From Sphingopyxis jiangsuensis (GTDB lineage Bacteria > Pseudomonadota > Alphaproteobacteria > Sphingomonadales > Sphingomonadaceae): a stretch of DNA of 64,000 nt. Each line of letters opens with the position of its first letter. Within the stretch, counting starts at the first letter, position 1. Shown here piece after piece: positions 41,365-48,080 of the stretch. Location: positions 248,001 to 312,000 of the forward strand of contig NZ_JAERPO010000001.1 of assembly GCF_016734905.1 (NCBI RefSeq), in the 5' to 3' direction. A model generated the notes under the pieces. It was not told the DNA's origin and ran no database searches. It saw only the letters and a list, made by a program, of their open reading frames with translations. Made by a program: the position numbers and the translations under genes.

Positions 41365-42031
41365 CGCACCCCAAATCCCCGACGAAGCCGAAGTCCGCGC
41401 GCGCTGGGGCGCTTTTGCGTGGACGGCGGAAAATGCCGAAACGGCCAAGGCGATCATCGCGCGCTATCCTGCGGGGCGTCAGCGCTCGGCGGTGATGCCG
41501 CTGCTCGACCTTGCGCAGCGCCAGGTCGGTGCCGAGACGCAGACGCAGGGCTGGCTGCCCGTGCCGGTGATCGAATATGTCGCGGCTGAGCTCGATATGC
41601 CCTTTATCCGCGCCTATGAGGTCGCGACCTTCTATACCATGTACAATCTCGCGCCAGTAGGCCGCTATCATGTGCAGGTTTGCGGCACGACGCCGTGCCT
41701 GTTGCGCGGGTCGGACGATGTGATTGCGGCGTGCAAGAACCGCGGGATGGCCAAGGGCAAGACGACGCCCGACGGGCTGTTCACGCTGACCGAGGTCGAG
41801 TGCATGGGCAATTGCGCCAATGCGCCGATGGTCCAGATCAACGACGATAATTACGAAGACCTCGATTACGACAGCATGACGCACATTCTCGACGAGCTGG
41901 CTGCGGGCAAGCAGCCCAAGACGGGGACGCAGAACCCTCAGCGCCACACGAGCGAGCCCGAAGGTGGCCCGACGACGCTGAAGGAAATGGTGTCGGCGAA
42001 CCATGATTATCGGAAGGAGTGGGGGGCATGA
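41357..42031 (+). CDS. nuoE: NADH-quinone oxidoreductase subunit E
   Basis: 224 residues. Thioredoxin-like 24-kDa subunit holding the N1a 2Fe-2S cluster: cysteines in VCGTTPCLLRG and VECMGNCANAPM. The GTG at 41357 has GAGG at good distance; an ATG 33 bases upstream is possible. C-terminal tail after residue 190 is longer and polar. The stop overlaps an ATG that opens a short frame through the following repeat. Confidence 0.94.
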   Translation: MADAPQIPDEAEVRARWGAFAWTAENAETAKAIIARYPAGRQRSAVMPLLDLAQRQVGAETQTQGWLPVPVIEYVAAELDMPFIRAYEVATFYTMYNLAPVGRYHVQVCGTTPCLLRGSDDVIAACKNRGMAKGKTTPDGLFTLTEVECMGNCANAPMVQINDDNYEDLDYDSMTHILDELAAGKQPKTGTQNPQRHTSEPEGGPTTLKEMVSANHDYRKEWGA

Positions 42032-42141
42032 ACCACCTTCTAACCCTTCGTCATGCCGGACTTGATCCGGCATCCATGACCACGACCGTTGCCTGGACCC
42101 CGGATCACGTCCGGGGTGACGATGTAGGGGAAGGCGCATGA
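42028..42141 (+). CDS. 37-codon bridging frame between nuoE and nuoF (reads through a REP pair)
   Basis: Starts with the ATG in the nuoE stop (ATGA) and ends with a TGA inside the nuoF start (ATGA). The translated sequence is repeat-derived ([10 protein letters not shown] ... WTPDHVRGD) and has no domain. Its likely value is to carry ribosomes across the inserted repeat, not to make a functional peptide. Same pattern occurs at nuoG/H and nuoJ/K. Confidence 0.45.
42049..42121. repeat. Inverted pair of REP-like palindromes between nuoE and nuoF
   Basis: Two 27-base units, 42049-42075 and 42095-42121, in opposite orientation, each with the core GGACTTGATCCGG or GGATCACGTCC. They match at most positions as reverse complements. 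The left unit is identical to the reverse complement of 45766-45792. This GTCATGCCGGA type is a widespread alphaproteobacterial intergenic palindrome. Confidence 0.85.
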
Positions 42142-43430
42142 GCCTCGCCGACAAGGATCGCATCTTCACCAACGTCTATGGGTTCCAGCCATGGAATCTG
42201 AAGGCTGCGCAGGCGCGCGGCGATTGGGACGACACCAAGGACCTGATGAAGCGCGGCCAGGACGCGATCATCGAGGAGATCAAGGCGTCGGGCCTGCGCG
42301 GCCGCGGCGGCGCGGGTTTTCCGACAGGGCTCAAGTGGAGCTTCATGCCGAAGGAGCCGCGCGCCGACCGCCCGAGCTTCCTCGTCATCAACGCCGACGA
42401 ATCCGAGCCCGGAAGCTGCAAAGACCGCGAGATCATCCGCCACGATCCGCACAAGCTGATCGAAGGTGCTTTGATCGCGGGTTTCGCGATGCGCGCCCGC
42501 GCCGCATACATCTATATCCGCGGCGAGTTCATCCGCGAGGCGGAGACATTGTTCGCGGCGGTGCAGGAGGCGTATGACGCCGGGCTGCTCGGCAAGAATG
42601 CGGCGAAGTCGGGGTATGATTTCGACGTCTTCGTCCACCGCGGCGCCGGCGCTTACATCTGCGGCGAAGAAACCGCGATGATCGAGAGCCTCGAGGGCAA
42701 AAAGGGCCAGCCGCGGCTGAAACCGCCGTTCCCGGCGGGCGCGGGACTCTATGGCTGCCCGACCACGGTGAACAATGTCGAAAGCATTGCGGTCGTCCCG
42801 ACGATTTTGCGGCGCAGCGCGGCGTGGTTCGCGAGCTTCGGGCGCGAGAATAACAAGGGCACCAAGCTCTTCCAGATTTCGGGCCATGTGAACAAGCCGT
42901 GCGTCGTCGAAGAGGAAATGAGCATTCCCTTCCGCGAGCTGATCGACAAGCATTGCGGCGGCATTCGCGGCGGCTGGGACAATCTGCTCGCTGTCATCCC
43001 CGGCGGATCGTCGGTCCCGCTGGTTCCCGCAGCTGAGATCATGGACTGCCCGATGGACTTCGACGGGCTGAAGGCCGTCGGATCGGGCCTCGGCACCGCG
43101 GCCGCGATCGTGATGGACAAGTCGACGGACGTCGTTCAGGCGATCAGCCGCATCAGCTATTTCTACAAGCATGAAAGCTGCGGCCAGTGCACGCCGTGCC
43201 GCGAGGGCACTGGCTGGATGTGGCGCGTGATGGAGCGGCTGCGCACCGGCGACGCCGCCATCGAGGAAATCGACACGTTGTTCGACGTGACGAAGCAGGT
43301 CGAAGGCCACACCATCTGCGCGCTCGGCGACGCCGCGGCGTGGCCGATCCAGGGCCTGATCAAGCATTTCCGCCCTGAAATCGAACGCCGCATCCGCGAG
43401 AATGGCGGCGCGCTGGAGGCGGCGGAATGA
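42138..43430 (+). CDS. nuoF: NADH-quinone oxidoreductase subunit F
   Basis: 430 residues, the 51-kDa NADH/FMN subunit. [14 protein letters not shown] (nucleotide-binding glycines), [28 protein letters not shown], and the N3 cluster [13 protein letters not shown] plus a later Cys in [12 protein letters not shown] starts in the stop of the bridging frame. Stop overlaps the ATG of a 92-codon gene. Confidence 0.97.
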
Positions 43431-43705
43431 TTAAGGCAATTGAAAAAGATCACGTTTGCGTCACTCGCGACGGGAAACGTATTCCGGTCCGCCTCGCAGC
43501 CTACAAGAAGAAAGGCGCGTACAAGGTCTCCAAAGGGCCAAACGTCGTCTCGGCCGAAATCTCCTGCGCCACTTTAGATGAAGTCATGCAGTACGTCGGC
43601 AAGGGTTACATGGTCCGTATGCAAAGCGAGATTATGGACCTTGACGGAAAGCGGAGGCGCATCAACGGCCTCTATAGCCACGACAAAATTGAGGCGATCC
43701 GCTAA
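43427..43705 (+). CDS. 92-residue protein of unknown function between nuoF and nuoG
   Basis: Basic protein with no membrane span: [35 protein letters not shown], then [17 protein letters not shown] and a closing [17 protein letters not shown]. The first 60 bases have 27 G or C, below the surrounding genes, and codon choice (ATT, AAA, GAA) differs from the nuo genes. ATGA at the start and TAATG at the stop join it to nuoF and nuoG. It is not a complex I subunit and looks like acquired cargo adapted to the operon. Confidence 0.7.
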
Positions 43706-46852: not shown

Positions 46853-47337
46853 GTTACGTAGGTCATCTCGTTAAAAGCTTCACCTTGTGGGAGTTTGTGA
46901 AGGCGCACGCGCTCACGCTCAAATATTTCTTCAAGCCGAAGGCGACGATCAACTATCCGTTCGAGAAGAACCCGCTGAGCCCGCGGTTCCGCGGCGAACA
47001 TGCGCTGCGTCGCTATCCGAACGGCGAGGAACGCTGCATTGCGTGCAAGCTGTGCGAGGCGGTGTGCCCTGCGCAGGCGATCACGATCGAGGCCGAGCCG
47101 CGCGACGATGGTTCGCGCCGTACCACGCGTTACGACATCGACATGACCAAGTGCATCTATTGCGGCTTCTGCCAGGAAGCGTGCCCGGTCGATGCGATCG
47201 TCGAGGGGCCGAACTTCGAATTCGCGACCGAAACGCGCGAAGAGCTGCTCTATGACAAGGCCAAGCTGCTCGCAAATGGCGACAAATGGGAACGCGCGAT
47301 CGCGGCGAATCTTGCCGCCGACGCGCCCTATCGGTAA
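46849..47337 (+). CDS. nuoI: NADH-quinone oxidoreductase subunit I
   Basis: 162 residues, ferredoxin-type subunit with two 4Fe-4S clusters: [16 protein letters not shown] and [17 protein letters not shown]-terminal amphipathic region anchors it to the membrane arm. Twelve bases separate it from nuoJ, one of the few junctions in the operon without overlap. Confidence 0.97.
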
Positions 47338-47349
47338 GGGCGCGCGCAC

Positions 47350-47961
47350 ATGATCCAGCTTATCGCCTTCTATCTCTTCGCAACCATCGTCATTGCGTCC
47401 GCCGCAATGGTGATTTTCGCGCGCAACCCCGTCCACAGCGTGATGTGGCTGATCCTCGCCTTCTTCAACGCGGCGGGGCTGATGCTGCTCGCGGGCGCCG
47501 AGTTCATCGCGATGCTGCTCGTCATCGTCTATGTCGGTGCGGTCGCGGTGTTGTTCCTGTTCGTCGTGATGATGCTCGACATCGATTTCGCCGAACTGCG
47601 CGCGGGTTTTGTCCGCTATCTTCCGCTCGGGACGCTTGTCGCCATCATCCTCGCGGCCGAGCTGGTCTTCGCGGTCGGCGCGTGGAGCGCGGGCGGGGTC
47701 GACCTTGCCGCGCGGACTGCGCCGGTCGTGTCCGACACCAGCAATATCCAGCAGATCGGCGAATTGCTCTACACGCGCTACATCTTCCTGTTCGAGGCGG
47801 CGGGTATCGTCCTGCTCGTCGCGATGATCGGCGCTATCGTGCTGACGCATCGCCAGCGCGGCGGGGTGCGCGCACAGAATGTCGCGCAGCAGGTGCGCCG
47901 TCGTCCCGAGGACGCAACGCGCCTCGTCGATCCGGGCACCGGGCAGGGGGTTGAACTGTGA
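47350..47961 (+). CDS. nuoJ: NADH-quinone oxidoreductase subunit J
   Basis: 203 residues, about five membrane spans (MLLVIVYVGAVAVLFLFVVM is the conserved third span). C-terminal tail is basic and soluble (QQVRRRPEDATRL). Stop TGA overlaps a GTG that was probably the original nuoK start before the insertion described at 47958. Confidence 0.95.
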   Translation: MIQLIAFYLFATIVIASAAMVIFARNPVHSVMWLILAFFNAAGLMLLAGAEFIAMLLVIVYVGAVAVLFLFVVMMLDIDFAELRAGFVRYLPLGTLVAIILAAELVFAVGAWSAGGVDLAARTAPVVSDTSNIQQIGELLYTRYIFLFEAAGIVLLVAMIGAIVLTHRQRGGVRAQNVAQQVRRRPEDATRLVDPGTGQGVEL

Positions 47962-48080
47962 TTTCGTCGCATATCCCTAACCCGTTTGCATCGAGCGCAG
48001 TCGAGATGCCCATCGTTCGTGCGCGCCTTCACGGTGTCTCGACTTCGCTCGACACGAACGGAAATGGAGTTCAGGCATGA
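47958..48080 (+). CDS. 40-codon bridging frame between nuoJ and nuoK (reads through a palindrome)
   Basis: Opens with GTG in the nuoJ stop (GTGA) and ends in the ATGA of nuoK. The first codons after the start, ATT TCG, equal codons 2-3 of nuoK. TGATTTCG occurs at 47959-47966 and again at 48078-48085, so the frame appears to be the former nuoK start reading into inserted DNA. Peptide is repeat-derived with no domain. Confidence 0.45.
47982..48061. repeat. TCGA-type palindrome between nuoJ and nuoK
   Basis: Arms of 29 bases, 47982-48010 and 48033-48061, are reverse complements at most positions (cores TCGAGCG and CGCTCGA). Related in sequence type to the repeat inside bkdB. The surrounding 119-base insert is flanked by an 8-base direct repeat TGATTTCG. 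Confidence 0.8.

Follow-up and report, generated by a model that had tools for sequence, protein, structure and literature searches.

Genes whose stop and start codons overlap can be translated by termination and reinitiation. In the accessible text on such pairs the commonest overlaps are -4, -1 and -8 nucleotides (nt), and the upstream gene need contribute no more than its last 15 nt to the process (PMC10666635). According to the same text, little or no termination-reinitiation was left across gaps of about 20-38 nt in reporter work on three archaeal and three Escherichia coli native pairs (PMC10666635). The junctions described here resemble those pairs in their -4, -1 and -8 nt overlaps, in the enrichment in heteromeric complexes and in the presumed distance-dependent loss of coupling (PMC10666635, PMC6728339, accessible parts). 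They differ in that the published pairs are native, and no repeat serving as a translated adaptor is found in the accessible text of PMC10666635, where the word "insertion" does not occur. Our subject is the nuo (complex I) operon in a 64,000-nt stretch of Sphingopyxis jiangsuensis (assembly GCF_016734905.1, contig NZ_JAERPO010000001.1, positions 248,001 to 312,000 of the forward strand; hereafter the window), in which repeats separate three pairs of genes and each repeat is read through by a short frame running from the upstream stop to the downstream start, probably as a result of selection for coupling.

S. chlorophenolicum, S. wittichii and N. aromaticivorans are, like the host of the window, sphingomonads. 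All three are among the hosts of CGTC-tagged repetitive extragenic palindromes (REPs), which have a stem of 8-9 bp, a loop of 4-5 nt, CGTC at one end and a CCA tail, are mostly head-to-head dimers, are mainly alphaproteobacterial and lack a dedicated transposase (PMC3733652, accessible text). Some of them lie within or overlap coding regions, and two of our elements share their anatomy; they are described there as intergenic or intragenic, however, and in the accessible text the word "operon" and any stop-to-start bridging are absent (PMC3733652). The palindromic elements of Rickettsia are likewise frequently read in frame, but many are fused inside proteins, whereas the sphingomonad ones form separate frames between genes (available part of the review PMC10969869). 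Small mobile sequences of enterobacteria that carry open reading frames (ORFs) are also small repeats with open frames and possible peptide additions, but what is described for them are gene fusions, and neither "operon" nor "translational coupling" occurs in the accessible text (PMC2759123). Repeats and coupling were each known already; for their combination, repeats retained as coupled mini-cistrons, a search confined to open-access papers found no report. A miniature inverted-repeat transposable element of Geobacter, Chunjie, reportedly sits in an operon and leaves the operon structure undisturbed.

Three bridge frames in the nuo operon of the window

All three bridge frames lie on the forward strand (+), as do the genes that they join. 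The nuoE/F bridge (42028..42141, 37 codons) runs from the ATGA at the stop of nuoE (41357..42031) to the ATGA at the start of nuoF (42138..43430), the nuoG/H bridge (45714..45812, 32 codons) from the ATGA at the stop of nuoG (43705..45717) to the GTGA at the start of nuoH (45809..46852), and the nuoJ/K bridge (47958..48080, 40 codons) from the GTGA at the stop of nuoJ (47350..47961) to the ATGA at the start of nuoK (48077..48382). An earlier, sequence-only reading had described frames of these lengths, and all three were found where it had placed them. Both ends of every bridge are stop-start overlaps of the -4/-1/-8 nt kind seen in termination-reinitiation pairs. At nuoE/F and nuoG/H the remaining two forward frames are interrupted by stops within the insert; at nuoJ/K one alternative frame is stopped within the insert and the other carries just the nuoJ stop and is open beyond it.

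The same reading had a palindromic repeat at each gap, which held for all three, with the amendment that the repeats form two families and not one. The nuoE/F and nuoG/H bridges each contain a head-to-head pair of CGTC...CCA palindromes (42048..42122 and 45736..45793, +), and the nuoJ/K bridge contains a different inverted repeat (TCGAGCG..AGTCGAGA / TCTCGACTTCGCTCGA; 47982..48061, +). Judged by eye, the first two elements have the anatomy of CGTC-tagged REPs (CGTC + ATGCCGGA-CTTGA-TCCGGCAT + CCA), and they too occur as head-to-head dimers in many genomic copies: their core gave 36 forward and 36 reverse matches in the 3.13-Mb host genome, with many pairs less than 50 nt apart. The nuoJ/K element, also judged by eye, has arms of the TCGAGCG/AGTCGAGA type and no tag, and falls outside that class; its core had 59 matches with at most one mismatch in the host genome. 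All three elements lie between genes as separate frames, not inside a gene and fused to its protein in the manner of the Rickettsia elements. The sequence TGATTTCG is present at both ends of the nuoJ/K bridge (47959-47966 and 48078-48085), like a target-site duplication.

As RNA, the whole bridges were predicted to fold at -56.3 kcal/mol (z -5.96) for nuoE/F, -55.8 kcal/mol (z -5.37) for nuoG/H and -48.7 kcal/mol (z -3.32) for nuoJ/K. A scan of positions 41900-48200 gave no promoter-like and three terminator-like sites, which is below the shuffle means, and none within any bridge. The statement that the rest of the operon is almost entirely ATGA-coupled proved too strong: among the remaining 12 junctions (the two additional small ORFs included) the overlap is 4 nt at six, 1 nt at three and 8 nt at one, and two have none (nuoI/J, +12; nuoK/L, +4). 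The chance of three bridges out of three in a single genome was estimated at about 0.2-4% (0.12 cubed to one third cubed).

Bridges in the nuo operons of relatives

Among 128 nuo operons, 58 of the 60 hairpin repeats at nuoG/H, nuoJ/K and nuoK/L were strict stop-to-start bridges, ending at -4 or -1 of the downstream start. The relatives were the best 80 of 583 named sphingomonad nuo loci to which were added 49 picked from the 155 further genomes of this family that gave a match; removal of two exact duplicates (L168, L172) left 127, some of them cut by contig ends, in addition to the window. The closest named NuoG among those best 80 was that of Sphingopyxis sp. LK2115 (93% identical). Gene ends were set by homology and the first in-frame stop. 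Each gene was assigned the start codon closest to the point where its first residue aligned, and other starts up to 24 nt away were allowed. A set of 188 was formed by the inserts, 60-260 nt long, with a match to DNA elsewhere, gaps below 60 or above 260 nt being excluded. A strict bridge begins with a start codon at the upstream stop and ends at -4 or -1, to which -8 was added for nuoC/D and nuoD/E in the 188-insert set; a wide bridge begins up to 30 nt past the upstream stop and ends between -11 and +5. Because the label based on matches elsewhere also took in conserved small genes, a folding filter (z <= -2) was added, which left 135 hairpin repeats in 55 of the 128 operons (median folding energy -66 kcal/mol) and also removed inserts with many matches, such as those at nuoJ/K of L066, nuoK/L of L053 and L175 and nuoG/H of L173 (bridged or +2). 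Pairwise counts of insertions and deletions between inserts were left unused because the identity filter admitted non-homologous pairs (326 of the 355 pairs had a net difference in length of 0 mod 3).

Over all nuo junctions, 86 of the 135 hairpin repeats were strict bridges, 103 when -8 ends were included, and 130 were wide or chained. The strict and the wide or chained counts were 4 and 5 of 5 at nuoB/C, 5 and 14 of 17 at C/D, 0 and 3 of 3 at D/E, 10 and 21 of 23 at E/F, 0 and 6 of 6 at F/G, 1 and 1 of 1 between nuoF and the small ORF Y that follows it, 27 and 28 of 28 at G/H, 1 and 1 of 1 at H/I, 7 and 18 of 18 at I/J, 18 and 18 of 18 at J/K, 13 and 14 of 14 at K/L and 0 and 1 of 1 at M/N. 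At E/F of L016, L019, L020 and L031, for example, the chain consists of a repeat bridge and then a small gene with its own coupling to nuoF. Bridges similar to the nuoE/F bridge of the window were found in L003, L004, L006, L010 and L162, and overall the bridges of relatives derive from several unrelated-looking repeats of varied lengths.

When the repeats at G/H, J/K and K/L were grouped by similarity, 24 of 25 clusters were wholly in the bridging phase and one was mixed (p = 6×10−11 if the clusters are independent); clustering of the unfiltered set gave 29 of 29 in phase by majority. The only out-of-phase repeat at these junctions was that at G/H of L164 (gap 156), whose frame ends 1 nt before the start. 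In the 188-insert set strict bridging was found in 134 inserts (-8 at C/D and D/E included), as compared with about 3% after deletion of 1-2 nt, 31% after shuffling at the same length and 12% after shuffling in random phase; wide bridging was found in 175 of the 188, the frameshift null being 0.16. That 31% of right-length shuffled inserts bridge, and that a second frame is open after the nuoJ stop in the window, would suit an explanation by chance and stop-poor palindromes. Set against the clusters in phase and the roughly 3% of frameshifted inserts that bridge, this explanation is hardly credible, and the doubt raised by three of three in one genome is gone, given the 58 of 60 strict bridges and the 24 of 25 clusters wholly in phase; the relatives examined ruled out chance in a single genome.

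The sequence-only reading had proposed comparing related nuo operons with and without repeats, and in this comparison the inserts at overlapping junctions were nearly always in phase and free of stops. In the 188-insert set the gap was 1 mod 3, the phase that a bridge requires, in 33 of 34 inserts at G/H, 19 of 19 at J/K and 17 of 17 at K/L. Uninserted junctions had a 4-nt overlap in 74 of 74 cases at G/H and 95 of 100 at J/K, and were mostly spaced by 3-10 nt at K/L and 12-34 nt at I/J. A restart codon at the upstream stop was present in 17 of 17 inserted versus 16 of 103 uninserted K/L junctions, and in 13 of 25 versus 0 of 79 at I/J. All 25 I/J inserts of this set have a frame that begins at the nuoI stop or within the next 24 nt and ends between -4 and +2 of the nuoJ start, with a wide null of 0.10 at this junction.

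It had been suggested that either selection or the mode of insertion preserves coupling. Under the latter, elements would enter at the TGA with a target-site duplication and their lengths would fix the phase without selection. There is some signal of this kind: the match between the sequence running on from the nuoJ TGA and that running on from the nuoK start is 3-10 nt long with a mean of 5.2, versus 4.5 for shuffled pairs (maximum 5.16 of 200), in the window it is 8 nt, and a similar excess was seen at K/L (4.0 vs 3.3). The excess is absent at G/H (3.35 vs 3.34), the bridges keep one phase although they vary in length and sequence, and elsewhere in the host genome the families of the window show no phase bias (9/12/9 of 30). 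Target duplication could account for the NTGA at both ends and not for the phase, and with its weak signal at J/K and K/L and none at G/H this mode was rejected as improbable. The lack of phase bias elsewhere in the host genome and the varied repeats and lengths behind the bridges of relatives favour selection, and the restart codon at K/L (17/17 vs 16/103) was counted on the same side.

Repeats at other junctions and in other families

In the host genome, stretches around the listed cores of the two repeat families of the window were read and genes were called with a simple codon model (core C1:1202039 lay outside). There were 83 repeat clusters, including the three of the window, of which 46 were between same-strand genes, 20 convergent, 9 divergent and 8 inside called genes. 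The 30 same-strand gaps of at most 260 nt outside the window are those whose phases were 9/12/9. Most such gaps were unbridged: among 29 of 60-260 nt, three were bridged strictly (null 0.03 each) and seven widely (null 0.10), and with alternative starts and chains 7 of the 30 were linked. Where overlap signals were present at both ends, three of four junctions were bridged. Direct bridges join hisA-hisF, trpB-trpA and a pair for Fe-S assembly, fmt-truA is bridged using a start 12 nt further in, and less clear links (L114, L124, L161) go through very short or shifted frames; the labels hisA/hisF, fmt and truA are partly our presumption.

The hisA-hisF, trpB-trpA and fmt-truA junctions, picked because the host genome bridges them, were followed in 30 loci each, and two loci lacking trpB were dropped, as was a third whose gap was impossible. 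Gaps of 40-320 nt, which hold repeats and small genes, were bridged strictly in 20 cases and widely in seven, and were unlinked in four of 31; without the three loci of the host genome the figures were 17, 7 and 4 of 28. Bridging is not special to complex I, and these three operons follow the rule family-wide, with exceptions.

Beyond the family, 40 nuo loci were drawn from 70 matching genomes that belong to other families in the class. Gaps of at least 60 nt were found at 2 of 40 G/H, 0 of 40 J/K, 15 of 40 I/J and 8 of 40 H/I junctions; the usual state was an 8-nt overlap at G/H and an overlap or short spacer at J/K. Among the 26 gaps of 60-260 nt, 3 were strict bridges versus 0.7 expected from the null and 11 were wide versus 2.7.

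Coupling, ribosome cover and small genes

Reinitiation is reported to be largely or wholly lost at gaps of about 20-38 nt, so that a repeat of about 100 nt should uncouple its gene pair if no mini-cistron leads the ribosome over it. The explanation that we favour, at a probability of about 0.70, is that selection for termination-reinitiation coupling filters repeat insertions. Short palindromic repeats dispersed in sphingomonad genomes would sometimes land at stop-start overlaps (ATGA, GTGA, TAATG) and move the downstream start about 100 nt away, beyond the reported range of reinitiation, and such an insertion would persist almost only if it reads as a mini-cistron. A ribosome finishing the upstream gene would restart at the overlapping ATG or GTG, translate the hairpin and so unfold it, stop at the TGA that overlaps the next start and restart there. 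The analysis shows the frames, their phase and openness, the positions of their ends, their breadth across the family and the weak or absent peptide constraint; that ribosomes translate the bridges and reinitiate, and that selection acts against lost coupling, we infer.

Several observations weigh against this explanation. Five of the 135 hairpin repeats are unlinked (C/D of L049, L169 and L191; E/F of L065 and L175, where a two-step path ending at -11 is present), some E/F bridges end at -11, i.e. 11 nt into nuoF, and one of the four host-genome junctions with overlap signals at both ends is unbridged; because of the -11 ends and this unbridged junction the probability was lowered from 0.72 to 0.70. 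At the three other operons L252 and L255 (trpB-trpA), L293 (fmt-truA) and L236 (hisA-hisF) are unlinked, only one of four gaps above 320 nt is linked (L300, as against L265, L283 and L295), and the choice of these operons was itself based on bridges in the host. Bridging in other families is above the null and far below the sphingomonad figures. The wide limits were fixed after the I/J junctions had been seen, and the similarity clusters are a treeless proxy for independent events. Shine-Dalgarno-like motifs precede the downstream start at 30 of 34 inserted G/H, 14 of 19 J/K, 9 of 17 K/L and 12 of 25 I/J junctions, and the downstream genes may be initiated independently through them. A weak constraint on the peptide is possible in some bridges: in two sets the ratio of nonsynonymous to synonymous differences (pN/pS) was 0.70, with third-position changes slightly commoner.

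The strongest rival is that translation across the spacer is itself selected, as ribosome cover against Rho-dependent polarity or mRNA cleavage at the hairpin, with the overlap reinitiation being incidental. The hairpins are strong (-49 to -56 kcal/mol in the bridges of the window, in line with the low median over the 135 repeats), the bridges cover the whole spacer, and some E/F bridges run on into nuoF. Cover alone predicts looser ends, however, with frames reaching tens of bases into the downstream gene, whereas most of the observed frames stop at -4, -1 or -8, some E/F frames at -11 and a few frames between 0 and +4, and these are overlaps that favour reinitiation. For G/H and J/K the end is at -4 or -1 in 45 of the 46 hairpin repeats, although the limits used (-11 to +5) miss longer overlaps. 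We regard cover alone as unlikely in comparison with selection for coupling.

The bridges could also be genuine small protein genes that happen to hold repeats, and relatives do carry small genes at the same junctions (45-46 amino acids at G/H in Sphingopyxis, 45-49 amino acids at E/F). Three sets of such genes without repeats had pN/pS of 0.12-0.30, and in the same genomes the nuo genes upstream of the bridges had 0.04-0.34. For similar repeat bridges, compared in nine sets of 2-6 sequences, the point values were 0.61-2.21 and third positions showed a slight excess at most, so the amino-acid constraint expected of a small gene (pN/pS well below 1) was not seen in them, and their sequences come from different repeats. 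The rival of genuine small genes was rejected for the repeat bridges, for which we consider it very improbable, and pN/pS supports it for the three non-repeat sets. On these comparisons the bridge peptide looks free or nearly free to vary while the frame and its openness persist, which argues for a carrier role.

If selection for coupling is the cause, the junctions would constitute a natural experiment on translational coupling, with different repeats at several junctions held nearly to one phase, and the bridges and the rare unlinked spacers would be natural alleles and exceptions for testing it. This suggests that ribosome hand-over, beyond a shared transcript, is needed at nuoG/H, nuoJ/K, hisA-hisF, trpB-trpA and fmt-truA. 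Junk-looking short frames in operons may act as adaptors, which is a hint for annotation. It would also be a simple route for repeats to become translated and a possible raw material for new small genes. A tentative extension, which we put well below even odds, is that overlapping junctions act as a frame filter that makes each surviving repeat a translated mini-cistron, giving a large and constantly renewed set of repeat peptides from which some conserved small membrane-protein-like genes may have been born; if true, genes would arise by coupling at overlapping junctions.

The small genes at these junctions are varied. At G/H of L001, L002, L004-L008, L012 and L163 a conserved ORF of 45-46 amino acids (MTPVHAIASILFVGMGYSVWRGFNP...; pN/pS 0.27 in nine genomes) stands in place of the repeat bridge of the window, and the repeat may have replaced this ORF in the lineage of the window. 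Between nuoD and nuoE, L002, L011, L021, L023 and others, i.e. many sphingomonads, have a conserved ORF of about 110-125 amino acids (AHYNAQDADAYVALMTDDACEAGYRG...) coupled at both ends. Its product may be a SnoaL/NTF2-like protein. In the window this place is held by a 59-amino-acid ORF (41185-41364) that overlaps both neighbours (-1 and -8 nt) and is without a Pfam match at E 0.001, and many relatives have other ORFs there or none. At nuoH/nuoI of L001, L003, L017, L018, L027 and others both genes are coupled to ORFs that are about 150-205 codons long and look unrelated to one another; several of these ORFs begin like signal peptides (by eye). The ORF Y between nuoF and nuoG of the window (43427-43705, 92 amino acids) overlaps both genes (-4 and -1), is without a Pfam match and was found elsewhere only in L003 and L027 among the loci compared. 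Rare unlinked spacers of 48-320 nt were present in L252, L255, L293 and L236 at places where many relatives overlap. Further upstream in the window, nuoC carries a long C-terminal tail rich in Lys, Ala and Pro (39640-39932).

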